From Vanrija pseudolonga (lineage: Eukaryota > Basidiomycota > Tremellomycetes > Trichosporonales > Trichosporonaceae): 64,000 nt of DNA. Of the stretch, positions 22,852 through 51,239 are shown one piece after another (the first letter of the stretch is position 1; every line of letters starts with the position of its first letter). Made by a program: the position numbers and the translations under genes. Below the pieces are notes generated by a model. The model did no database searches. It worked only from the letters and a program-made list of their open reading frames with translations, and was not told the DNA's origin. Where the stretch lies: the NCBI RefSeq assembly GCF_020906515.1, contig NC_085854.1, positions 310,001-374,000 on the forward strand, read 5' to 3'.

Positions 22852-23161
22852 TAGATCTTGTGCCACACACGGTCAGAGACCGCCGAATGATGAAACCGTT
22901 GCGAAGTGTTCCGGCGGGTGCCATAGAGGTTCTCCAACTTCGCTGTGGCATGATGAGGAGGACGGGGAGTAGTGGGTCGGGGCTGGACTAGAAATGGGGT
23001 TAGCAGCGTCATCAGCGTCACCCGAATCATCTCGATCAGTGTCTGCTTCCCCGCTTGTCAGGCAGCAGCGAATAGACTCGCGTCTGATGGGGCATATAAA
23101 GACGGTGAACGGCCGCTACTGCCCCACTTGACCCCACGAGTCTATCAATCTCGCCAACACC
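22852..23161. other. Spacer between Cys-rich copies 1 and 2
   Basis: A 310-bp spacer. It holds the 3' element of copy 1 and, at about 23093, a CATATAAAG TATA-like box about 70 bp before the start of copy 2. Confidence 0.6.
22860..22900 (+). promoter_or_regulatory. 3' element of Cys-rich gene copy 1
   Basis: GTGCCACACACGGTC, then a 3-nt loop and GACCG, which can form the 5-bp stem CGGTC/GACCG. A second block, GATGAAAC-like, follows. It starts 8 nt after the stop codon, so it lies in the 3' UTR. The same two blocks follow the other three copies. Confidence 0.7.
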
Positions 23162-38707: not shown

Positions 38708-39203
38708 ATGGGACACGAGCACCACCGCGGCGCGTACGAGGAGTACCAGGGTTATGGGCAGGTACGTCTCGCCCCGCTGCCTCGCGGCTCGCAAGCTCGC
38801 AAGCTCGCCGCTGACTCCCCCCACAGCAGATCCAGCCCGAGCACCAGGCCAAGCTGAGCCACGAGCTCATCTCGGGCGCGGCGGCGTACGAGGCGGCCAA
38901 GGCGTGGGTCGGCGCCTTGCACCACATCACAGCTGACGACGACGCAGGTACGAGGAGCACCGCGCGCGTAATGGCGAGCCCGAGAGCCACGCCAAGGCCA
39001 AGGAGATCCTCGCGGGCATTGCGGGCGCAATTGTCGACCGCGTGAGTGGGGTGGCGGGCGGGGACTGCCCAGCGAAGGAGGCGGAGAGTTCGACGCAGCT
39101 GACCCACCCCTAGGAGTTCGAGACCAAGGGCCTCGACTGGCTCGACAGGGAGAAGGCCAAGCGCGGCGCGTATGAGAACGCCGCGTCCGGCTTTGGGTGG
39201 TAG
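38708..39203 (+). CDS. DUF3759/CipC-like small protein, array gene 1
   Basis: Four exons (38708-38761, 38827-38903, 38948-39041, 39114-39203), 104 residues. The family pattern is complete: the start MGHEHHRGAYEEYQGYGQ, then EHQAKLSHELISGAAAYEAA in exon 2, YEEHRARNGEPESHAKAKEI and LAGIAGAIVDR in exon 3, and EFETKGLDWLDREKAKRGAY in exon 4. This matches fungal DUF3759 proteins (PF12585), known through CipC, the concanamycin-induced protein of Aspergillus, and reported as stress-, antibiotic- or host-induced in several fungi. There is no signal peptide, so the protein is likely cytosolic; the biochemical role is unknown. The C-terminus ends in an aromatic SGFGW. Best representative of the canonical subgroup (genes 1, 2, 9, 10). 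Confidence 0.92.
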
Positions 39204-39761
39204 GCGGCGGCGGCGATTCCTGGGGTAGCAGCAGCAGCAGCAGGGTATAGGCGTAGTATGAATGGCGTGTTGCCACCGCGGTGCTCGCCGAACGGATGGG
39301 ACGCTACTCGCACCACTGACGACCGCTCACGGCCTGCTCACCAGTCGTGGAGACGAGGCGCACTGAAGCGTGTGGCCTCCGACGACACGGCCTGTCGACT
39401 CACCCACTCCACCCCGACACCTCGCCGGCGCCCCGCGGCCCATGACGGCGTCCTTGTCACCGCTGCCAGCCAGCACTGGCACCTGTCCAGCCCCCCGCTC
39501 GCTCACGCACACCCAACGCCCGACGCATCGCCCACGCCCACGCCCCGCGCACGCCCTGCGCACGCCCGTCCCCCACTAGGCGCGAGTGACGTCGAGAAGA
39601 GCCGGAAGGTGACCGCGCTGCCGGTCAGCGCGCAGTGAGCTCTCCTCGGAAAGGTATAAGAAGTGGCCTGTTAGCTCGACCCCAACCACCTCCCTCACCA
39701 GCTCCAGCTCCCTCGCCGCGCCCTCGACCCCTCGACGACACCAGCACCAACCCACCACACA
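39204..39761. promoter_or_regulatory. Spacer between array genes 1 and 2
   Basis: A 558-bp spacer. A GGTATAAGAAGTGG box at 39653-39666 is the TATA region of gene 2, about 105 bp before its ATG. Short GCAGCAGCAGCAGCAG repeat at about 39226-39243. Confidence 0.65.
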
Positions 39762-40252
39762 ATGTCGCCCAAGCAGTTCCAAGCCTCGCACGACGAGTAC
39801 TCCAAGCTCGGCGCGGTGCGTCCCGCTTTGGCCTCAGCCCCGCGCGACGAGCTAATGGCCCCAGGACACGGACAAGCACAAGGCCAAGCTCAGCCACGAG
39901 CTCGTCGCTGGTGCGGTGGCGTACGAGGTTGCTCACAAGTGGGTCGGCCTCCTTCCGCTCACTCCCCGCCCCGCTCGGCTCGGCGCTGACGCGCCTCGCC
40001 TCGCCTCGCAGATACGAGCAGCACATCGCCAAGAACGGCCAGCCCGACTCGAACGTAAAGGCCAAGGAGGTGATCGCGGGCCTCGTCGGCGCCGTGGTCG
40101 ACCGCGTAAGTGCCCCGGGGCTGTTGGCGTGGCTGTGGGGCGCGAGCTCACCCCGCGCACAGGAGTTCGAAACCAAGGGCCTCGACTGGCTCGAGAAGAA
40201 GAAGATCAAGGCGCAGGCGGAGAAGGAGGCCGCGGCGGCGTACAAGGTCTAG
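39762..40252 (+). CDS. DUF3759/CipC-like small protein, array gene 2
   Basis: Four exons (39762-39815, 39865-39938, 40012-40105, 40163-40252), 103 residues. Canonical motifs are KHKAKLSHELVAGAVAYEVA, YEQHIAKNGQPDSNVKAKEV, IAGLVGAVVDR and EFETKGLDWLEKKKIKAQAE; the C-terminus is Lys/Ala-rich (AAAAYKV). It starts with MSPKQFQASHDEYSKLGA, unlike gene 1. Intron positions and phases equal gene 1, while the sequences of the introns do not match, so the duplication is not recent. Confidence 0.92.
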
Positions 40253-40952
40253 ACGTGCCATGTACAGTGCCGGCGGCAACTCACCCGCGTGGTGCGTCGC
40301 ACGCATCATTGTCCGTGTCCCTTCTGTGCTTCCTTCTCCGTTGTATGCCCGACTGCTGCCTGTCCGTCTGTAGCCGCGAACGAGAGTAACCGCCGCGTAG
40401 TCGGTGGTTATTCCAGATACGATGTGAAGTAAACCACTGCAACGGCGAGAGATGGCGTCATGGGGGATGACACTTATTCGTTGCGAGAGCGCAAGAGTGG
40501 CGCGTGGCGCTGGGCGCGGCGCAGGCTGGGCATTGACGCAGATCCGGGCCGAGCGCCGCCCGCGCAGTTCACCCGACCGTGCATAAGGTGTAAGGACAAG
40601 CAAGCTCTTGGCCTTCTATTGCCAGCTTAGCAGAGCTTGCGGGCTAGCTTGGCGATGGAACAAGCCTAGCGGCGGGCATTTGTGAGGTACTGTAAGACTT
40701 GGGTGGTCACCCGACCAGCAGTGGGCCAGATAAAGTTGTGCTGTCGCAGACCGACGTACCGACCGACCGCGTCGTGCATTCCAACCAACGCCGTGTGCCT
40801 CAATGGTGTCATGTTGCGCGATCGGTTTGTTGATCAGGGCTGTGTCGTGGTGTGGCTTGTGGCCACCGACTGCTGCAGAGGCATATGTAGATAACTGGCG
40901 TAGGGGTAACGAGCTCCTCCTGCCCGTTTACATCGCAGACAAACACAACACC
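40253..40952. promoter_or_regulatory. Spacer between array genes 2 and 3
   Basis: A 700-bp spacer without a supported gene. No TATAAG box is seen; CATATGTAGATAAC near 40888 is the only A/T-rich candidate upstream of gene 3. GACCGAC repeats occur near 40749-40768. Confidence 0.45.
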
Positions 40953-41423
40953 ATGGCGGACAAGTACAAGGCGCAGTACGAGACCTTTGAGAGCTCGACT
41001 CTGGTGAGTTGGCGTGGGCGGGGGCCAGAGCTCACGACCAAGGCGGACCGCCAGACAAACCTCACCAACCACGACGCGGCGACCGCGCTCTCGTACTGTA
41101 AGTGCTGTTATGCGCTGCGCAAGCTGACACCCACGCAGTGGCAGCCAAGGAGTGAGCGCGCGCCATCAGCACAGCTGACCCCAGATACGAAGAGTACACG
41201 GCCGCAAACGGCAAGCACGGCAGCGTGTCCAAGCGCGACAAGATCATCCGGGGGATCGTGAACCCGATTGTTGACCGCGTGAGCCGCGTCTGCCAGCCTG
41301 TGCCTGCCCAGCGCTCACACCCACGCCCAGGAGTTCACCTCCAAGCAGCTCTACTTCCTCGACAAGAAGACGGTCGTCGAGACGACGGTCAAGAACGTCG
41401 AGCTGGCCGAGAAGGTGCTGTAG
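40953..41423 (+). CDS. DUF3759-like small protein, array gene 3 (five-exon type)
   Basis: Five exons (40953-41003, 41043-41097, 41139-41151, 41185-41278, 41331-41423), 101 residues. It is strongly diverged: the KLSHEL region reads NLTNHDAATALSYLAAKE, then YEEYTAANGKHGSVSKRDKI, IRGIVNPIVDR, EFTSKQLYFLDKKTVVETTV. The 94-nt exon and the -DR end before the last intron are kept. The canonical second exon is cut by an extra intron, leaving a 13-nt microexon (41139-41151). The first-exon acceptor (after AAG at 41042) is a less certain choice than the alternative at 41054. Confidence 0.8.
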
Positions 41424-41662
41424 GTGTAGTGTAGGGGGATGCATATGTATGAGGCTCGCTTGGCTTGGTGGTTGTTTCAATTTCTTCTGCCTGCCTGCCA
41501 GCCAGCCGATGCCGTCATCCCGTGTCGTCGTCATCGATTCGGTTGGGTTGCGGGAACCAGTGGGTTCCAGTCAGGCAATGAGTGGGTGTGAGTTCGCACG
41601 CAACTGCACGTTTCAGCTCGTGTTGGTGCTTCTCTTGCATCTACATCCTCACACACATCACC

Positions 41663-42121
41663 ATGGCCGAGAAGTACCACAGACAGTACGACGAGTACAA
41701 GGCGCTCGGCGGGGTATGTGGTGCCGCCACTGGCTGCGCAGCTGACGTCGACCGCAGGACGTGTCGCAGGGCAACCTGAGCACCGAGCTACTGGCGGATG
41801 CCGTGGCCTACGGTACGTTTCGTGCCCTTGTCCCCTGTGTCCACTGCTGACCCGCACAGAGGCCATCACGACGTGGGTATAGCCCAGCTAGCCGAAGCTA
41901 ACGAGCCCAGCTACGCCGAGCGCCAGAGCGAGCCGGGCAACCAGGACGCGGTGGTCGCCGAGATTGTCAACGGCATCACTGAGCGCGTACGTCCAGCCAG
42001 TCCTGGGCCCGCTGACCCCGCCCAGGAGTTCATCGCCAACCAGATCGACTGGCTCGACCGCAAGCAGGTCGCGGCGCAGGCGATCAAGGACACGAACGAG
42101 GCGATCAGCAAGGCAAAGTAA
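41663..42121 (+). CDS. DUF3759-like small protein, array gene 4 (five-exon type)
   Basis: Five exons (41663-41713, 41758-41812, 41860-41872, 41911-41986, 42026-42121), 96 residues. It reads MAEKYHRQYDEYKALGG, then NLSTELLADAVAYEAITT, YAERQSEPGNQDAVVAEIVN, GITEREFIANQIDWLDRKQV. The 13-nt microexon is at 41860-41872. The fourth exon is 76 nt, not the usual 94, because six codons of the NGxPxSHAK region are missing. It shares TTGCATCTAC in its leader with gene 5, the nearest relative. Confidence 0.85.
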
Positions 42122-42356
42122 ACTGTATGCATGCGTTGCGTTGCGCTCTTGCGGGTCGGCCGTGCCGATGGTGCTGTCACATGCCTTGCTGTCGTCATGG
42201 GCCAGTGGTAGCGCCGGAACGCAGTGGCCAGTCAGGTCACTTATGGCAGGCCAAACTGCGTTTAAAGCTGCCCTATTGCCTCTCGCATGGGGCTTCTTCT
42301 TGCATCTACCCATACCTCTCCCCCTACTACTCATACACACGCGCCCACACACCACC

Positions 42357-42886
42357 ATGGCTGAGCAGTACGAGCAATATTTTGACGAGTACCAGGAGCT
42401 CGGGGAGGTACGTACCGCCCGCGCCGCCACGCTCGCTGACGTCAGGACGTGACTCCCGCCAACTTGCCCCCGCAGCACCTGGTCTATGCGATCGCGTATG
42501 GTGCGTAAGCTGTGTGGCTGCTGTCTACTGGCTGCCTGGCTGCCTGGCTGTGGCGTGCGTTGCACCGCTGCTTGCTGACTGACCCCCGCCACGCAGAGGC
42601 CATCAAGAGGTGCGTGTGTCGTCTGTCGTTACCTCCCTCCCGCCTGGCGCCACATGCTGACCACGCCCTTAGCCTCACCGAGAACCCAGGCCCCAAGGGC
42701 AAGGAGGAAGAGAACATCCACAACACTGTCAACGCTCTCACGGAAGGCGTGCGTCGTAGCGAGCGGGCGGTACGCTGACCTCGTTTGCAGGCGTTTGTCC
42801 AGCGCCACATCGACTGGCTCCAGCAGCACGACATCGCGGCGGCCGCGCTAGCGCTCACTAAGGACGCGCTCAACAAGAAGAAGTAG
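42357..42886 (+). CDS. DUF3759-like small protein, array gene 5 (five-exon type)
   Basis: Five exons (42357-42407, 42446-42500, 42597-42609, 42673-42748, 42791-42886), 96 residues. All five exon lengths equal those of gene 4 (51, 55, 13, 76, 96 nt), though residues differ widely: MAEQYEQYFDEYQELGED, then YAIAYEAIKSLTENPGPKGK, EEENIHNTVNALTEG, AFVQRHIDWLQQHDIAAAAL. The leading Glu of the EF motif is lost. An identical exon scheme with low residue identity points to an old duplicate pair evolving fast. Confidence 0.83.
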
Positions 42887-43445
42887 CGTGGTGGATGTAT
42901 GCCGCTTGGTGTGATGGTCGGGGTGGCATCGGTGGCAGGGCCGCGGTAGTGATCGTCGTGGCGCGTGGCAGGTGCGGAGAAGGTGCAGCACGTAGTTGTC
43001 GACCGAGACAGGTGAGCCGGCACATTGTGCCGGTCGGTGCGGTCCTTGCGTCGCGCGCGAAGCTAGTTGCATAGGTGGCCAGTCGCCAGCTACTGTAGGC
43101 GTGCAGCCTAACCTAGCCAGTGCGCCAGTGCACCACCGCGCACGTGTACTCCTCCCAATGTGGCACAGCGCGCTACGTCCGTCGCGCACGTCACGACATG
43201 GCACCCCACGTCTCACGCCTCGCGCCTCCCGCATTCCGCCAGGTCGCCGCGCTGCCATGTCGCCCAGGTCGCCATGGCATCATTCCTCGCGATGCGCTGC
43301 GGATGTCGCGCGCGCGCGAGGCGCGTCGCCGGGCGGGGTATAAGAGGGCGACGTGACGTGCGTTGTGTGGCACGTTCTTTCTTCCCCGCCCTCTCTCTGC
43401 CTCTTCACTTCACCACAGCACCACAACCCCCACACACTACACACC
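42887..43445. promoter_or_regulatory. Spacer between array genes 5 and 6
   Basis: A 559-bp spacer. It holds a block (43231-43310) shared with the promoter of gene 7 and a GGGGTATAAGAGGG TATA box at about 43335-43348, about 100 bp before the ATG of gene 6. Confidence 0.7.
43231..43348 (+). promoter_or_regulatory. Promoter block of gene 6, shared with gene 7
   Basis: GCATTCCGCCAGGTCGCCGC begins the block; an ATGGCAT and a GCGATG..CTGCG segment follow, ending in a TATAAGAGGG box. The same order recurs before gene 7 at 44518-44642. Confidence 0.7.
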
Positions 43446-43901
43446 ATGGCCGACCAGTTCCGCAACGCCGACCAGGCTTACTACGGTCTCCCTGTGCGTT
43501 GTGCTGCTGCTGTGCACGCGCACACGCTGACACACCCCCAGCAGTTCACAGAGGCGACCGTCACGCCCGACGTCTTCGCGCAGGGCATCTCGTGGGAGAG
43601 CGTCAACACGTGAGTTGTGGCGCGCGCGCGCGTCCTCCCCGAGCTCGCACGGCTGACGCCGCGCTCGCTCGCACCTTGCAGCTACAACGACCGCGTCAAC
43701 AACGAGGGCAAGCCCGACTCTGACGAGGACCGCCGCGACCTCGTCGACGACGTCGTGGGCACCATTGCCGACCGCGTGGGTGTGCGCTGCAGGGTGGGCG
43801 AGCTGACGGTCCAGGAGATCGACACCAAGAACCTCGACTGGCTCGACCGCGACGCCGTCGTCAACGTTGCCGTCGAGAACGTGTACCGCGCCACTGCGTA
43901 G
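43446..43901 (+). CDS. DUF3759-like small protein, array gene 6
   Basis: Four exons (43446-43493, 43542-43609, 43682-43775, 43815-43901), 98 residues. Sequence: MADQFRNADQAYYGLP, QFTEATVTPDVFAQGISWES, YNDRVNNEGKPDSDEDRRDL, VDDVVGTIADR, EIDTKNLDWLDRDAVVNVAV. The KLSHEL helix is replaced by ATVTPDVFAQGISWE, an arrangement shared only with gene 7. The protein is more acidic than the canonical copies. Exon lengths follow the four-exon plan. Confidence 0.87.
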
Positions 43902-44728
43902 TTGTAGCCGCGCGTTGCGAAGTATGCATGCTGTTGCAGTGTTGGTCTTGATCGGAGGTAGGGGTGTGCCTCGTGCATGCCACGAGCCGCGGCGCCACGC
44001 CGCGCCGGCCATCATCCTGCCACCCTGCTGCGAGCATCACCCGCCGCCGCACAGCGGGTGTTCGGCACCAGGTGCCACTGCACAGGTCCACGGTTCGAGC
44101 CGTGATGAGAATCCGGTCCCAAGGGGGTCCGGCGACGGGTTCGGGGGTAGAGTCGACCCCCTTTTGTGTGTGTGTGTGGATGTGGGTGTTCGTGGCGGGT
44201 GTGTGTGCTGCTCGGAGACGTCACACATATTTACATGAGGCTGGCTGGGTGGATGGAGGTCAGGCCAGCGTAGCGGAGAACAGTGTTCCGTCCGACTCGC
44301 GCTATGCACGTCCGGCACGGCCGTCAAGATTGAAGCTCCGCGCCGTTAAGGTTCAATCGAGCTAGCAGCTAGTAACTAGCAGCAGGCCAGGCCGGCGCGC
44401 ACGTCGCCTCGCGCACGCACAGCGCACGTGTAGCTCATTGGCTGCTGTCGTGATCATGTCATGTGGCACGTCGCGCGGCATGGCACGACAGCCACCTACA
44501 CGACAGGACAAGCTCGCGCATTCCGCAGGTCGCCGCCGCTGCCGATATTGCATGGCATGGGCCATTCCGCAAGGCGATGTTCTGCGCTTGTCGTGCAGCG
44601 CGCCGTGGGGCCGGCGTTCCTCGCGGCGTGGGGTATAAGAGGGGCTGCGTGCGGCAGTGCCGATGTTGCTCTTCCCACCCCCACTACACCACCACCCCCA
44701 CCCCCACCAAACCTCACCAACTACGACC
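43902..44728. promoter_or_regulatory. Spacer between array genes 6 and 7
   Basis: An 827-bp spacer. A (TG)n-like stretch lies at about 44164-44208. The shared promoter block and TATA box lie at 44518-44642. Confidence 0.65.
44518..44642 (+). promoter_or_regulatory. Promoter block of gene 7, shared with gene 6
   Basis: GCATTCCGCAGGTCGCCGCC begins the block; ATGGCAT and GCGATG segments follow, and it ends in GGGGTATAAGAGGGG. The block is collinear with 43231-43348, with small indels. Confidence 0.7.
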
Positions 44729-44798
44729 ATGTCCGACGTGTGGAAAGGCTTTGAGCGCGAGTACGAGGAGCTTCCGGTGCGCTGCTGCCTCTGCTGCC

Positions 44799-44860
<62 letters not shown>

Positions 44861-45292
44861 GCACCCTGCTGACCCGCGCCCAGGAGTACACCCCGGAGAC
44901 GGTCACGGCCGAAGACCTCGCCAATGGCATCGTTTGGCAGAGCTTCGAATCGTGGGTCGTCGTAGGCGCCTCGCCTCGCCTTGGCCCGGACACGCAGGTG
45001 CAGGTGGCATAACTGACACCACGCCCCCGCACAGGTACAACCAGTACGTCAAGTACAACGGCAAGCCGTCCGACTATGACCGCCAGCGTATCATCCGCGA
45101 GCACGTCGCCGCCGTTGCCGGACGCGTAGGTGTCGCACCGCATGCCGCTGGCCACCGGCCACCGGCCACCCCCAAGGGCAAGCTCACACCCCACAACAGG
45201 AGATCCAGTCCAAGAATCTCTACTGGATCAGGCCCGACGAGGCCATCGACAAGGCTACCGAGCTCTTGCACTTGGACTTGGCGTCGGATTGA
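44729..45292 (+). CDS. DUF3759-like small protein, array gene 7
   Basis: Four exons (44729-44776, 44884-44951, 45035-45125, 45200-45292), 99 residues. Sequence: MSDVWKGFEREYEELP, EYTPETVTAEDLANGIVWQS, YNQYVKYNGKPSDYDRQRII, REHVAAVAGR, EIQSKNLYWIRPDEAIDKAT. Sister of gene 6 by the VT.ED/DLANGI segment and by promoter. Exon 3 is one codon shorter than usual (91 nt). Intron 1 contains a (CTG)20 tract. The C-terminus is acidic (LDLASD). Confidence 0.86.
44800..44859 (+). repeat. (CTG)20 triplet repeat in intron 1 of array gene 7
   Basis: Twenty uninterrupted CTG units, preceded by interrupted CTG/CCT units from about 44781. It lies between the donor at 44777 and the acceptor CCCAG at 44879-44883, so it is intronic. 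Confidence 0.92.
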
Positions 45293-45738
45293 AGTTTGTA
45301 CCGAACGAGCGAGCGAGTGAGGGTGCTTGGCGGGTCGGGCATAGCGTGTCCTGCGAATGAAAGAAGCAATGGCCGTTGAATCGAGTAGCCGGCGCGTCAT
45401 GGCACGCTGCTTCGCCTTGTAGTGGTGCATGGACGTGACGATGCTGTCGCCATGAGGCCTGACCGAGGGGTTGAAGCTGAACGGCACTGCGTGCTACGTC
45501 GCGCCGAGCGCGCGTGAGTGCTCAATCCACGTCAGTGGTGAGCCTGCCTTGTGGTCGTGCCTGGTGACGACAGACACCACCACCCCCGCCGCCGCCACAC
45601 TCGACTTCCAGCGGGATGAGTGGGATGCTGTCAGCGCAGCAGCAGCGTGCGACACTGCTCGATCGGGCTAAGCGAGCATCAACACTTTGTCCACTAACGT
45701 GTCAATCACCCATCCTCTCCCTACCTACGACTCGCACA
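45293..45738. other. Spacer between array genes 7 and 8
   Basis: A 446-bp spacer without a supported gene or clear TATA box. (GAGC)n-like GAACGAGCGAGCGAGTGAG near 45302-45320. Confidence 0.45.
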
Positions 45739-46256
45739 ATGCCCGCTGCACCAGGAGACGCCGAGTATCTCGACGCACAGCTCGTCGCCAACAAGGAGAC
45801 GTACACCACTCGTCTGGTACGCGCGCGGCTGCACGAGAGCTCAGCTGACGAAAGGCCCAGGAGCCGGGGAGCATCACGACCGAGGTGCTTGCGCTGGGCG
45901 TGATGAAGGGTGCGTGGGGGATAGTCATAGTGGCGGGGTAGAGCTGACAACAGACCTTAGACGCGCTCGACGAGTTCGTCGACCAAGGAAGGCCACGCGG
46001 CCGCTGACCTGCACAGATACCACCGGATAGTGTCCGCCGACGGCGCGCCAAAGCACAAGCACGAGCGCGTGGGGTATCTCGAGCTGGCAGCGACCAAGGT
46101 CGTCGGCGATGTGCGTGGGCTGGGCTTGGGTGTGGGCTGGGGCTCGCTGACGAACAACAATAGCAGGTCAAGGGACGCGACTTTGGGGGACGGGTCGACC
46201 CCGACGCGGCGGAGAAGCTCGTCGTCAAGGAGCTCGAGTTTGTCACTAGGTCATGA
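45739..46256 (+). CDS. DUF3759-like small protein, array gene 8 (five-exon type, most diverged)
   Basis: Five exons (45739-45816, 45861-45909, 45961-45973, 46017-46110, 46167-46256), 107 residues. The 13-nt microexon (45961-45973) and the 94-nt fourth exon mark it as a family member, but residues are hardly conserved: a longer N-terminus (MPAAPGDAEYLDAQLVANKE), ITTEVLALGVMKDALDEYHR, LELAATKVVGD, VKGRDFGGRVDPDAAEKLVV. The EF.TK..DWL motif is gone. The donor after the microexon is a weak GTTCGT. It could be a functional outlier or a gene in early decay; no stop interrupts the spliced frame. Confidence 0.72.
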
Positions 46257-46962
46257 GGGGCGAGGGTACCCTCGGTGATGGCGACGTCGTAGTAGTAGAG
46301 CTGGCTGGTGGATGCATGCTACCGCCTGTCGCTGTACCGCAGTGTCCTCGTCGCGGTCGCCCTCGTTGCCGCTGTGTGAAGGTGTCGCGCTGGCTGCTTG
46401 TTGTCCAGCCGTTGATGATGTCATACCCTTGTGGCATGGCGATGGGCGTGTAGTCTCGCTACCGTCGAGTCGGGTTTGCCGACGGGCGAGACGGGCACGA
46501 GTAGCGAGCACGCAGCATCACGTCGACTGCGCGCGCAGCGAGTAGCATACCGCCCTCCTCGCAAAGCACACTTGCGCACGCCTAGCCGCTTCGAGGGCGT
46601 CGAGACGCCTCGCGTCGGTCGGCATAACCTCGAATCTGACGCCCGCCCACCCACCCGGCTAGCAGCTACAGCTATTCTCGCCCACCACGTGAAGCCGCCG
46701 TCGCTATTTCCGTTGTGCCCGTTGTCGTTGCGAGGTATGATGAAGTGTCAAGCGAGCGAGATGAATGGTGACGAGATGAGCACGAGGTGATCGCGGCGGG
46801 AGGGAGGGAGGGGGCGGCAGTGCTGCTGGTGGTTGTGCTGTGACACGCTGGCCGACCTCGCCTCGACGCACATATAAAGGCCTGCTCTTGCTCGTTTCCC
46901 CCTCATCCGCTCTTCACCTCACTTCCTCCCCTCCTCAACAACAACAACACACACAAAGCACC
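46257..46962. promoter_or_regulatory. Spacer between array genes 8 and 9
   Basis: A 706-bp spacer. ACATATAAAGGCC with TATAAAG at 46873-46879 is a good TATA box, 90 bp before the ATG of gene 9. The leader between is CA- and CT-rich. Confidence 0.65.
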
Positions 46963-47478
46963 ATGTCCGACCAGTTCCAGGACCAGTACAACCAGGTTCA
47001 GAACCTCGCCCCTGTGAGTGGCCCTCTTCCTCCTCGCCACCTTCCTCCCCTTCCCCTCCTCCACCCTCGACGCACGTTAACCCGTGGCACAGGAGGAGCA
47101 CCGCGCCAAGCTCACGCACGAGCTCGCTGCTGGCGCCGTCTCGTACGAGGCTGCCAAGAAGTAAGCCCCGCCTTGCCCGCCTTCCCCGCGCCCAGCGCGC
47201 CCACTCACACGCACCCCAGGTACGAGGAGTACCGCGCCCAGAACGGCGAGCCCGACAGCCACGCCAAGCGCGACGAGATCATCGCCGGCTTTGCGGGTGC
47301 CATTGGCGACCGCGTGAGTTTGGTGTGGTGTGGGGTGTGGCTGGCTCGCCACGACCAACCCCAGAGCGCTGGATGCCCGCTAACCCGCCCCCAGGAGTTC
47401 GAGACCAAGGGCCTCGACTGGCTCGACCGCGACAAGGTCGTCCAGGACGCCACGCAGCAGGTGTCCAACGCCGTCTAA
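46963..47478 (+). CDS. DUF3759/CipC-like small protein, array gene 9
   Basis: Four exons (46963-47013, 47093-47160, 47220-47313, 47395-47478), 98 residues. Canonical: EEHRAKLTHELAAGAVSYEA, YEEYRAQNGEPDSHAKRDEI, IAGFAGAIGDR, EFETKGLDWLDRDKVVQDAT. The N-terminus MSDQFQDQYNQVQNLAP resembles gene 10. Strong TATA box and A/C-rich leader; codon bias is high, which suggests strong expression. Confidence 0.92.
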   Translation: MSDQFQDQYNQVQNLAPVSGPLPPRHLPPLPLLHPRRTLTRGTGGAPRQAHARARCWRRLVRGCQEVSPALPAFPAPSAPTHTHPRYEEYRAQNGEPDSHAKRDEIIAGFAGAIGDRVSLVWCGVWLARHDQPQSAGCPLTRPQEFETKGLDWLDRDKVVQDATQQVSNAV

Positions 47479-48670
47479 GCGTCGCCGCCGCCCGGCGCGC
47501 CCTGCCCGCCCACACGCAGTCGATAGGATGAAGACGCAGCAGCAGTCAGAAGAAGCACAGACACGATGATGACGCGATGCGATAACATGTTCACGACGCT
47601 GCGCACGTTGCGAGACGGGGGGCCACCGGGGCACGACGACTGACCGACTGACGCTAGGCGCCGCCGTTGCGCCACGGCGTGATGCGTGACGCTGCGCCAC
47701 GGCTGGCAGTCAGTCCTGCGCCTGCGCGCCTGCCTGCGCTAGCTGCCTTCCTCCTCGCCACTGTATCCGCCTCGCATCCCATCACTGTCGCCCTCGCCGT
47801 CGCTGTTGCATTGAGCGTGAGAAACGTCGCGACGATCATGACGCAAGCTCAAACGCACACACAACGAGTGATTAGATTGATTGCTTCTGTTTGTGTCTAT
47901 TTCAGTGACTCGGGCCTGAAGGGCGGCTGAGGGAAGGCAGGGAAGGCGCAGGGCCGACTGACGATCACGTCTGCGTCTGCGCACCGCGACGCACTGCCTC
48001 GTCTGCACAATGGCTCTTTTGCATCAGGCGCAGCAGCAACACACACACGCTCGGTTGGATTGGATTGGATTGCCCAGAAGCGAGAAGGAAGGCAGCATGC
48101 AGTAACTCAAGACCCGCCCGGTCGCCCGCCCTACGCCGTACACCGCCGACCACCCGGCGACGCGACAACCGTCCCCTCGCGCTGCCTTCCCCTCCCCGCC
48201 CACCCGGCCGCCCGGTTGCCTCACCTTCCTCCGAGTGCACAATTGGTGCCCATTAGGGCGCGCTGCTGCAATTTACCTCCTGACGGCAGGCAGCAGGCAG
48301 CAGGCAGCCTGACGCGCTGCGCGCCCACACACGCCAAGCAACCCCCTCTTTCCCGATTTAGCCCTTGGTCGGCATGCCAAGCGGCATGTCATCAACGTCT
48401 CATCTGGCGTCGTCCGTGTCGTGTCAGGGGGGGGGGGGGGGGCAGTCGCCTTTGCTGGCGATCACTGGCTCGCAACGAGGCCCTGGTGCACAGCTCTGGT
48501 AGTAGCAACCCTCTGACGTCGGCTGGCGTGCTGCGTGTCGCTCGCCTCGTCGCGCTGGCCGCAGCTTAAGTACTTATAAGCCGCGTTCCTCCATCTCGAC
48601 GTTCCTCCAACCGCACTCTCTTCCTCTCTACTACCACCCACCACCACCCACCACCACCAAAACAACCACC
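47479..48670. other. Spacer between array genes 9 and 10
   Basis: A 1.2-kb spacer. It contains a short (TTGGA)n run at about 48053-48070, a 16-G homopolymer at 48427-48442, and ACTTATAAGCC with TATAAG at 48575, 96 bp before gene 10. A CCACCACCCACCACCAC leader repeat lies just before the ATG. There is no supported gene. Confidence 0.55.
48427..48442. repeat. Poly-G tract (16 nt)
   Basis: An uninterrupted run of 16 G about 245 bp upstream of array gene 10. Confidence 0.9.
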
Positions 48671-49173
48671 ATGTCCGACTTCCAGGCCCTCGACCGCGCG
48701 TCGCAGAACTACAACCAGTACGGCAACGTGAGTCGCCCGGCTTCCTTCCTCTTCCCCATGGCAGCAGCTGACACCACACCCAGCCCGACCACCCCGAGCA
48801 CGAGGCCAAGCTCTCGCACGAGCTCATCGGCGGCGCTGCTGCCTTTGCCGCCGCCAAGGCGTGAGTTGGGGCGTGAACAACGCACCGCCTTGCTTCTGTC
48901 AGCTCACACACACCCCGCAGCTACCAGAACCACCTCGCGGCCAACGGCCAGCCCCAGTCGCACGCCAACGCCAAGGCCCTCCTCGCCGGCTTTGCCGGTG
49001 CCTTCATCGACCGCGTACGTGGCGGCGTTTCCAAGGCCTGCAGGCCAGTCCAGTCCACTAACACAGCCCAGGAGTTCGAGACCAAGGGCCTCAACTTCCT
49101 CGACCGCGAGAAGGCCAAGCGCCACGCCGTCGAGCAGGCCGAGCAGCAGGTCAACGCCGGCCAGTGGCAGTAA
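48671..49173 (+). CDS. DUF3759/CipC-like small protein, array gene 10
   Basis: Four exons (48671-48727, 48784-48860, 48921-49014, 49072-49173), 109 residues, the longest copy. Canonical: PEHEAKLSHELIGGAAAFAA, YQNHLAANGQPQSHANAKAL, LAGFAGAFIDR, EFETKGLNFLDREKAKRHAV, then a Gln-rich tail ending in GQWQ. Exon 2 is 77 nt, as in gene 1. Last gene of the array; the downstream reductase gene has a similar TATA context. Confidence 0.92.
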
Positions 49174-49836: not shown

Positions 49837-51239
49837 ATGCCAGCCCTCACCCCCGGCTCCCTCGTCCTCGTCACCGGCGCCTCAGGCTTCATGGGCACGT
49901 AAGTCGCTTCCCTCCCCTTCGGTCGTCACCACGCGCCCGCGGCCTAACCCCCGCCCAGCCACACGGTCGGCACGCTCCTCGACGCCGGTTTCGCGGTGCG
50001 CGCGGCCGTGCGCTCCGCCGACAAGGGCGAGCACCTCAAGGCCGAGTTCCCCGCGCACGCCGAGCGGGTCAGCTATGCCATCGTGCCGGACATGAGCGAG
50101 GTGGGTATCTCCTTCTCTTGTACGGCCCGCCCAGCTCACGCCCCAGCCAACCGCCTACGACGCCGCCGTCGTCGGCGTCGATGCCGTCGTGCACCTCGCG
50201 TCCCCGACCGACCTGATGACCCCCGGCCCGCCCTCGGTCATCATCCAGCCCGCGATCGACGGCGTCGTCAACGTCCTCTCGGCGGTACAGCGCTTCGCGC
50301 CGACCGTCCAGCGCGTGGTCCAGATGAGCTCGGTCGGCGCCATCGCGACCGTGGGCAAGGGCAGCGTGCCCGAGCCGGTCACGTACACCGAGGCTGGTGA
50401 GCTAGCGGGACGATGTGACTCCAAGCTTACACCCCCAGACTGGAACACGGAGGCCCTCGAGATCTGCGAGAAGGAGGGCGCCGCCGCCGGCCCCAACTTC
50501 AAGTACTCTGGTGCGTTGGTGGGTCTGAGTTGACTAACGCCGCAGCGTCCAAGATTGCCGCCGAGAAGGCGTTCTGGGACTTTATCGCCGAGCGCAAGCC
50601 GCACTGGGACGGCGTGGCGCTTATCCCGACTTATGTGGGTATGGCGGGGGCGAGTACGGCTGACGGCAGTGCGTTGGCCCTTCGAACGGCTTCTCGGCCA
50701 CTGGCGGCGTCGCTGGCCCCATTGGTGCGTACACCGTGTCGCGCAGCGCTCACACCTCCTAGCCATGGTCGTGCCCTTCCTCCAGCCTGGTATCCCGGAC
50801 CAAGCGCTGGCCAACTCGTTTGACAACTTTATCGACGTCCGCGACGGTGAGTGTGGCGTGGGACATGCTGTCGGACGTCCACTGACCCTTCAGTCGCCCT
50901 GGCCATCCTCAAGTCCCTCACGCTTCCTCAGGCGGGTGGCGAGCGCATCATCCTCTCCGCCGACACGCTCTTCGGCAACGACTTTGCAGTGGTGGGTAGG
51001 CTCTACTGTGCCCACACGAGCCGCACTCACACGCCACGCAGGTCGCAGGCACGCTCCCCAACCTGCCCACTGGCATCAACAAGGGCAACGCCGACCCGGC
51101 GTACCGCGCCTCCCTGGCCGCCTCGAGCGTCGTGTACGACGGGCACAAGGCCGAGCGCGTGCTCGGGATCACGTATCGCAAGCGCGACGAGTCGATCAAG
51201 GACACGTTCAAGGCGATCCGCGCCAAGCTCGCCATCTAG
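49837..51239 (+). CDS. NAD(P)-dependent reductase, GRE2/dihydroflavonol-reductase-like SDR
   Basis: Nine exons (49837-49898, 49959-50100, 50147-50396, 50439-50510, 50546-50634, 50670-50724, 50763-50846, 50894-50991, 51042-51239) give 349 residues, the usual extended-SDR length. Landmarks are the nucleotide loop VTGASGFMGTHTVGTLLDAG, VDAVVHLASPTDL, QRVVQMSSVGAIATVG with the catalytic Ser region, and YSASKIAAEKAFWDF with the YxxxK pair, then VCVGPSNGF-like GFSATGGVAGPIA. It would reduce a carbonyl (methylglyoxal, isovaleraldehyde or another ketone/aldehyde) with NAD(P)H in the cytosol; the exact substrate cannot be read from sequence. The first exon ends inside the nucleotide loop. Confidence 0.92.

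Follow-up and report, generated by a model that had tools for sequence, protein, structure and literature searches.

A tandem array of ten DUF3759/CipC-type genes in Vanrija pseudolonga, probably an old lineage-specific expansion

Introduction

Concanamycin A inhibits the vacuolar ATPase, and concanamycin-induced protein C (CipC) lends its name to a fungal protein family (PF12585, DUF3759) that recurs in work on fungal stress, antibiotic response and infection. In the portions of the sources available to us, Aspergillus nidulans CipC is associated with stress and with concanamycin A (PMC3424117), CipC-like proteins are reported to be up-regulated under antibiotics (PMC2944164), Pochonia CipC1 is strongly induced by chitosan and is termed related to reactive oxygen species (PMC8518118), CipC levels are raised in a pac-3 mutant of Neurospora, with a link to filamentous growth (PMC7355564), CipC expression in Fusarium depends on glutamine synthetase (PMC3829961), and CipC is termed a major hyphal protein of Aspergillus fumigatus (PMC5986918). 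In Cryptococcus neoformans, deletion of cipC altered 66 proteins (PMC11984179). The available portions of this work on other fungi give no biochemical function for CipC.

Here we describe ten CipC-type genes, g1 to g10, arranged in tandem in a 64-kilobase (kb) stretch of the genome of the basidiomycete Vanrija pseudolonga (hereafter the window; positions are counted from its first base). The window lies within contig 6 (2,608,619 bases); the whole genome comprises 9 contigs and 24,867,894 bases. Among the titles and abstracts listed by literature searches on CipC/DUF3759 and on Vanrija gene-family expansion, none describes a CipC array. We consider that the array probably arose when an inducible stress protein of CipC type expanded long ago, in this lineage, by birth-and-death evolution, and that one subclade has since become specialised.

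Results

Ten intact genes with a common exon plan

An earlier note on this DNA, made from the sequence alone, had described ten spliced, same-strand genes of 96-109 codons at 38708-49173. We built gene models by hand and checked frame, start, stop and GT-AG borders for each; all ten genes, which lie on the + strand, are intact in these respects, and the description holds. Intron phases 0,2,0 are common to all ten, with the reservation that the g8 model was revised once to fit this plan and its exon plan is hence no independent evidence. Six genes have exactly four exons (g1, at 38708-38761, 38827-38903, 38948-39041 and 39114-39203, and likewise g2, g6, g7, g9 and g10). Beyond the earlier description, g3, g4, g5 and g8 carry an extra phase-1 intron, which gives each a 13-nucleotide (nt) microexon (41139-41151, 41860-41872, 42597-42609 and 45961-45973, respectively) and a total of five exons. 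The penultimate exon is 94 nt long in seven copies (g1, g2, g3, g6, g8, g9 and g10), exactly the number noted before, 91 nt in g7, and 76 nt in g4 and g5. Two sequence hallmarks stood in part: the residue pair DR precedes the last intron in g1, g2, g3, g6, g9 and g10, but is replaced by ER in g4, EG in g5, GR in g7 and GD in g8, while EFETKGLDWLD, said to mark the canonical copies, is exact in g1 and g9, one residue off in g2 and two off in g10.

We also scanned for open 94-nt exons. Exon 3 of g8 scored 9.8, compared with a best score of 8.3 among 891 overlapping tiles outside the array, 486 of which contained any candidate; the margin is narrow. The note had also placed no other gene between the copies, a statement checked in part: intergenic gaps within the array measure 235-1192 bases and hold ATG frames of at most 126 codons, which were not compared with any library. 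Rfam and tRNA scans of the window gave no match. Intron 1 of g7 is mostly a (GCT)26-like run (44781-44859), whose length variation could affect splicing.

Whole-genome searches were run exon by exon with the family and with g1, g6, g4 and g8 singly. Two DUF3759 loci came to light beyond the window. One, x1, sits near 730.3 kb of contig 5; the other, x2, sits near 852.4 kb of contig 7 and is identical to the NCBI model LOC62_07G009195 (P0012). The resulting copy count is a lower bound (single divergent queries found little beyond themselves), and further divergent copies may lie elsewhere in the genome. Intron positions in x1 and x2 differ from the array plan. The ten array genes share intron positions that x1 and x2 lack, which fits a common tandem ancestry. 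Past its DUF3759 domain, x1 (L001:1335-2010) has a long, low-complexity tail that is first Gly/Gln/Tyr-rich and then Arg/Glu-rich.

Membership of the CipC family

The note had assigned the array to CipC/DUF3759 and had named a PF12585 search as a check. With the curated cut-off of 25 bits, seven of the ten proteins match. The four canonical copies all score at least 99.4 bits, supporting the assignment: g10 (48671..49173, 109 residues, 123.1 bits), g1 (38708..39203, 104 residues, 120.9 bits), g2 (39762..40252, 103 residues, 100.4 bits) and g9 (46963..47478, 98 residues, 99.4 bits), of which g9 and g10 are near-canonical in sequence. Three divergent copies also pass, namely g6 (43446..43901, 98 residues, 42.3 bits), g3 (40953..41423, 97 residues, 33.6 bits) and g4 (41663..42121, 96 residues, 33.6 bits). 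Divergent g7 (44729..45292, 99 residues) falls under the cut-off at 16.9 bits (E 0.0062), and neither divergent g5 (42357..42886, 96 residues) nor g8 (45739..46256, 107 residues), the most divergent copy, has any Pfam match at E<=1.

We also scored each gene, together with 5000 shuffles of itself, against a profile of the other nine copies. All ten score above every one of their own shuffles; for the copies without a Pfam match over the cut-off, the scores are 43.2 bits against 10.9 for the best shuffle (g5), 63.6 against 7.9 (g7) and 12.7 against 10.3 (g8), the last being marginal. On the strength of these leave-one-out profiles and the shared intron plan, we conclude that the ten copies form one family, g8 only narrowly. 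When a profile built from six members of the family was run against the PDB, no relative of solved structure came up at E<=0.5 (best 0.6). A 207-residue protein of Clathrus columnatus (P0010) has two CipC-like halves in a single chain.

The copies are old and unequal

Protein identity between copies ranges from 18 to 59%, and 38 of the 45 pairs are below 40%. Matches of more than 85% identity in the array DNA extend over at most 52 bases, and comparison of the array DNA gave no homogenised stretch between copies. These observations bear on a dosage array of functionally alike copies, a possibility that the earlier note had raised. The head-to-tail layout would suit such an array, as would the highly adapted codons of three copies (see below); however, the low identity of even the best pair, the lack of homogenisation and the wide variation in codon adaptation among copies make it highly improbable, and we abandon it.

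We placed the copies among their relatives with a main tree of 41 sequences, including 28 database proteins chosen from 126, and a smaller tree of 15 sequences. The main tree places g10 beside Apiotrichum porosum P0030 (86.5/92), to which g10 is 69% identical; g1-g9 are split from the rest (89.6/98), and g9 joins the six divergent genes (93.3/98). These six, g3-g8, form one fast clade in both trees (82.6/95 with 41 sequences, 92.1/80 with 15). Approximately unbiased (AU) tests rejected none of three constraints: an array-only clade (P 0.16), a clade of the microexon genes (0.16), and the array plus P0030 (0.68). The dispersed copies x1 and x2 group with Tremellomycete CipC proteins (98.4/96, main tree). 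The six fast genes are also adjacent on the chromosome, an arrangement with a chance of 5/210 that was examined after the tree was known. The nearest paralogue is an immediate neighbour in only 3 of 10 genes, a number reached in 3320 of 10000 permutations. In the main tree, a DUF3759 protein filed under Nocardia sp. NPDC059240 (P0067) sits among Tremellomycete proteins; a single scan across bacterial and archaeal genomes gave no relative, and contamination or transfer are the candidate explanations.

Divergent g4 is 39% identical to its nearest paralogue, g5, but shares 80 of 96 residues with V. albida P0005. Hence, the g4/g5 split predates the split of V. pseudolonga and V. albida. The copies are shown to be old rather than recent duplicates, and the birth-and-death evolution suggested in the earlier note is supported.

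Published models and conservation in relatives

We compared our models with database proteins, among them the 120 listed of 1915 matches. One NCBI model, LOC62_06G007925 (P0011), is identical to g10. Another, LOC62_06G007921 (P0009, 203 residues, 38708-40252), is a fusion of residues 1-99 of g1 with g2 from residue 6, and LOC62_06G007923 (P0006, 41663-42121) corresponds to g4 with its last intron, of 39 nt, retained. The V. albida protein P0005 is without that 39-nt stretch and is thus spliced like our g4 model. The published annotation therefore fuses or mis-splices part of the locus. At most five annotated loci cover the array if locus tags run consecutively; among the models, tags 007922 and 007924 did not appear.

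In a relative, unspliced frames agree with g9 at 92 of 97 residues and with g6 at 73 of 75, and the matching blocks follow the modelled exons; the g6 count leaves out exon 2, which is in a different frame in the relative. Both matches are presumably on one contig, of 32,731 bases. For g4, g6 and g9, the matches in relatives show constraint. Since the copies checked are conserved in this way, the array copies are probably working genes rather than junk.

Synonymous saturation between copies

The note had suggested diversifying evolution and had proposed dN/dS across copies as a check. By the Nei-Gojobori method, nonsynonymous distances (dN) exceed synonymous distances (dS) in many copy pairs. 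However, the observed mean dS of 0.67 compares with 0.82 after redrawing synonymous codons from pooled usage, and dS lies within 2 standard deviations of the redrawn codons in 42 of 45 pairs, indicating a synonymous plateau. Because dS is at this plateau, dN/dS between copies is uninformative. The part of the suggestion that stands is the fast divergence of clade g3-g8; positive selection is not demonstrable at such a plateau. A repertoire under diversifying selection, with divergent copies retained against different antibiotics or toxins of competitors, would be in keeping with one fast-evolving clade, with the description of CipC as antibiotic-induced in the available parts of work on other fungi, and with the excess of nonsynonymous distances. 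However, the plateau explains that excess, and the near-identity of g6 in the relative indicates constraint, not diversification. We regard such a repertoire as unlikely.

Promoter motifs and codon use

Across the window, TATAA[AG] has seven + strand sites and three more on the - strand; since gene models were made for the array and not for its neighbours in the window, these counts offer no comparison with other promoters. Five of the seven + strand sites lie 90-107 bases upstream of the ATG of an array gene: g2 (39655), g6 (43339), g7 (44634), g9 (46873) and g10 (48575). The remaining two lie at 23095 and 119 bases before the ATG of the next gene, which starts at 49837 and is NAD-dependent epimerase/dehydratase-like.

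Codon adaptation was measured against five small reference sets drawn from HSP70-, GAPDH- and EF-Tu-type pieces of this genome (the last so classed by its sequence), with YVC1-like and Tau95-like frames for comparison, taken as weakly expressed by assumption. Under all five sets, g10, g9 and g6 rank at the top of the array and g8 at the bottom, which suggests strong expression of the former three and weak expression of g8. TATA genes are higher in codon adaptation (exact one-sided P 0.016, n=10 genes). From these features we infer that expression across the array is probably graded and in part inducible.

Among other upstream patterns, heat-shock, Yap and Gcn4 motifs were absent upstream of array genes, and GATA, PacC and calcineurin patterns occurred at or under window density. 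Relative to the window, the stress response element (STRE) AGGGG was about twice as dense, with sites in 7 of 10 genes, and CACGT about three times as dense, with sites in 4 of 10. The best upstream 6-mer, ACGACA, is present in all ten regions, compared with 34 of 104 tiles (P 3.6e-5, uncorrected for the 1418 6-mers). The upstream DNA of g6 (43226-43348) and g7 (44513-44643) is 70% alike over 142 columns, with CACGTG and CCAAT patterns at matching distances.

Codon use also bears on whether the divergent copies are remnants of an old expansion that are now in decay. Such decay would fit the missing Pfam matches of g5 and g8, the sub-threshold score of g7, and the low codon adaptation of g8, g5, g3 and g7, which lie near the two frames assumed to be weakly expressed. 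Against decay, all ten genes retain open frames, starts, stops and GT-AG borders; with random codons of the same composition, the chance of an equally long open frame is 5-7% for each of g3, g5, g7 and g8; and g4 and g6 are conserved in relatives. Decay is thus an improbable account of the divergent copies.

Protein properties

All ten array proteins lack cysteine and have a negative grand average of hydropathy (GRAVY). The Ala+Gly fraction is 0.12-0.14 in g3, g6 and g7, compared with 0.20-0.29 in g1, g2, g9 and g10; g4 and g8 (0.21) fall among the canonical values, and the groups are not set apart by acidity. Inspection by eye, without a prediction program, found no signal peptide. Structure modelling of g10 gave four helices with low confidence (mean predicted local distance difference test score 65.4, predicted template modelling score 0.54). 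We rejected an amphipathic-helix reading like that of late embryogenesis abundant (LEA) proteins: with helix borders from this low-confidence model, of the 36 segments, three predicted helices in each of 12 proteins, none exceeded its shuffles in hydrophobic moment at p<0.1.

Discussion

In the history that we favour, a g10-like CipC gene would have been duplicated in tandem, after which birth-and-death evolution, with an accelerated phase, would have founded g3-g8, and at least g4 and g6 would later have come under constraint. Each array gene would have its own promoter; g10, g9 and g6 would be abundant and probably inducible, and g8 and some others weak or conditional. By analogy with other fungi, the products would be small, cysteine-free, mainly helical stress proteins made on disturbance of growth, pH or membranes, and the g3-g8 subclade would serve different partners or conditions. 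It is the step from array to function, including an inducible helical stress family with a specialised subclade, that we infer here; for the stress or toxin role suggested in the earlier note, the evidence comes entirely from the published work on other fungi, as far as available. A further possibility, which we put forward tentatively, is that the six central genes are a new subfamily of the Vanrija lineage that has retained the CipC gene frame while acquiring a molecular role of its own, with expression as a condition-specific set alongside the ancestral copy.

Several observations weigh against an old, lineage-specific expansion with a specialised subclade. Pairing of g10 with Apiotrichum P0030 would place the first duplication before the Vanrija-Apiotrichum split; an array-only clade is not rejected (P 0.16). 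Distance along the map and distance in the tree show no correlation (r -0.09; a value as high arose in 6624 of 10000 permutations). The position of g8 in the tree shifts between runs, and its membership of the family is weak. Among the six divergent copies, the orthologue comparison reaches g4 and g6, leaving g3, g5, g7 and g8. Lastly, expression is read only from codon use with small reference sets, not from transcripts or proteins. The ten-copy set combines a canonical member that is conserved, divergent members of old date and signals of graded expression, and offers natural variants for finding the function of CipC.

Compared with the PF12585 CipC family of other fungi, the array is alike in carrying the domain over the cut-off in seven of ten genes, in protein size, and in the DREFETKG motif, which is common to the array, Aspergillus P0016 and Apiotrichum P0030. 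It differs in comprising ten tandem copies, six of them strongly divergent and two without a Pfam match. Tremellomycete CipC proteins of the D(K/R)LxETKG type (Cryptococcus, Saitozyma and Apiotrichum P0043), which include x1 and x2, share the domain with the array but carry a different motif in place of DREF, and in x1 and x2 the introns lie elsewhere. Tandem expansion with one accelerated clade is a familiar evolutionary pattern, and the array resembles other lineage-specific birth-and-death expansions in that old, unequal copies lie in one block and single members are conserved in relatives. No categorical difference sets it apart from them; it has ten members and one accelerated clade.

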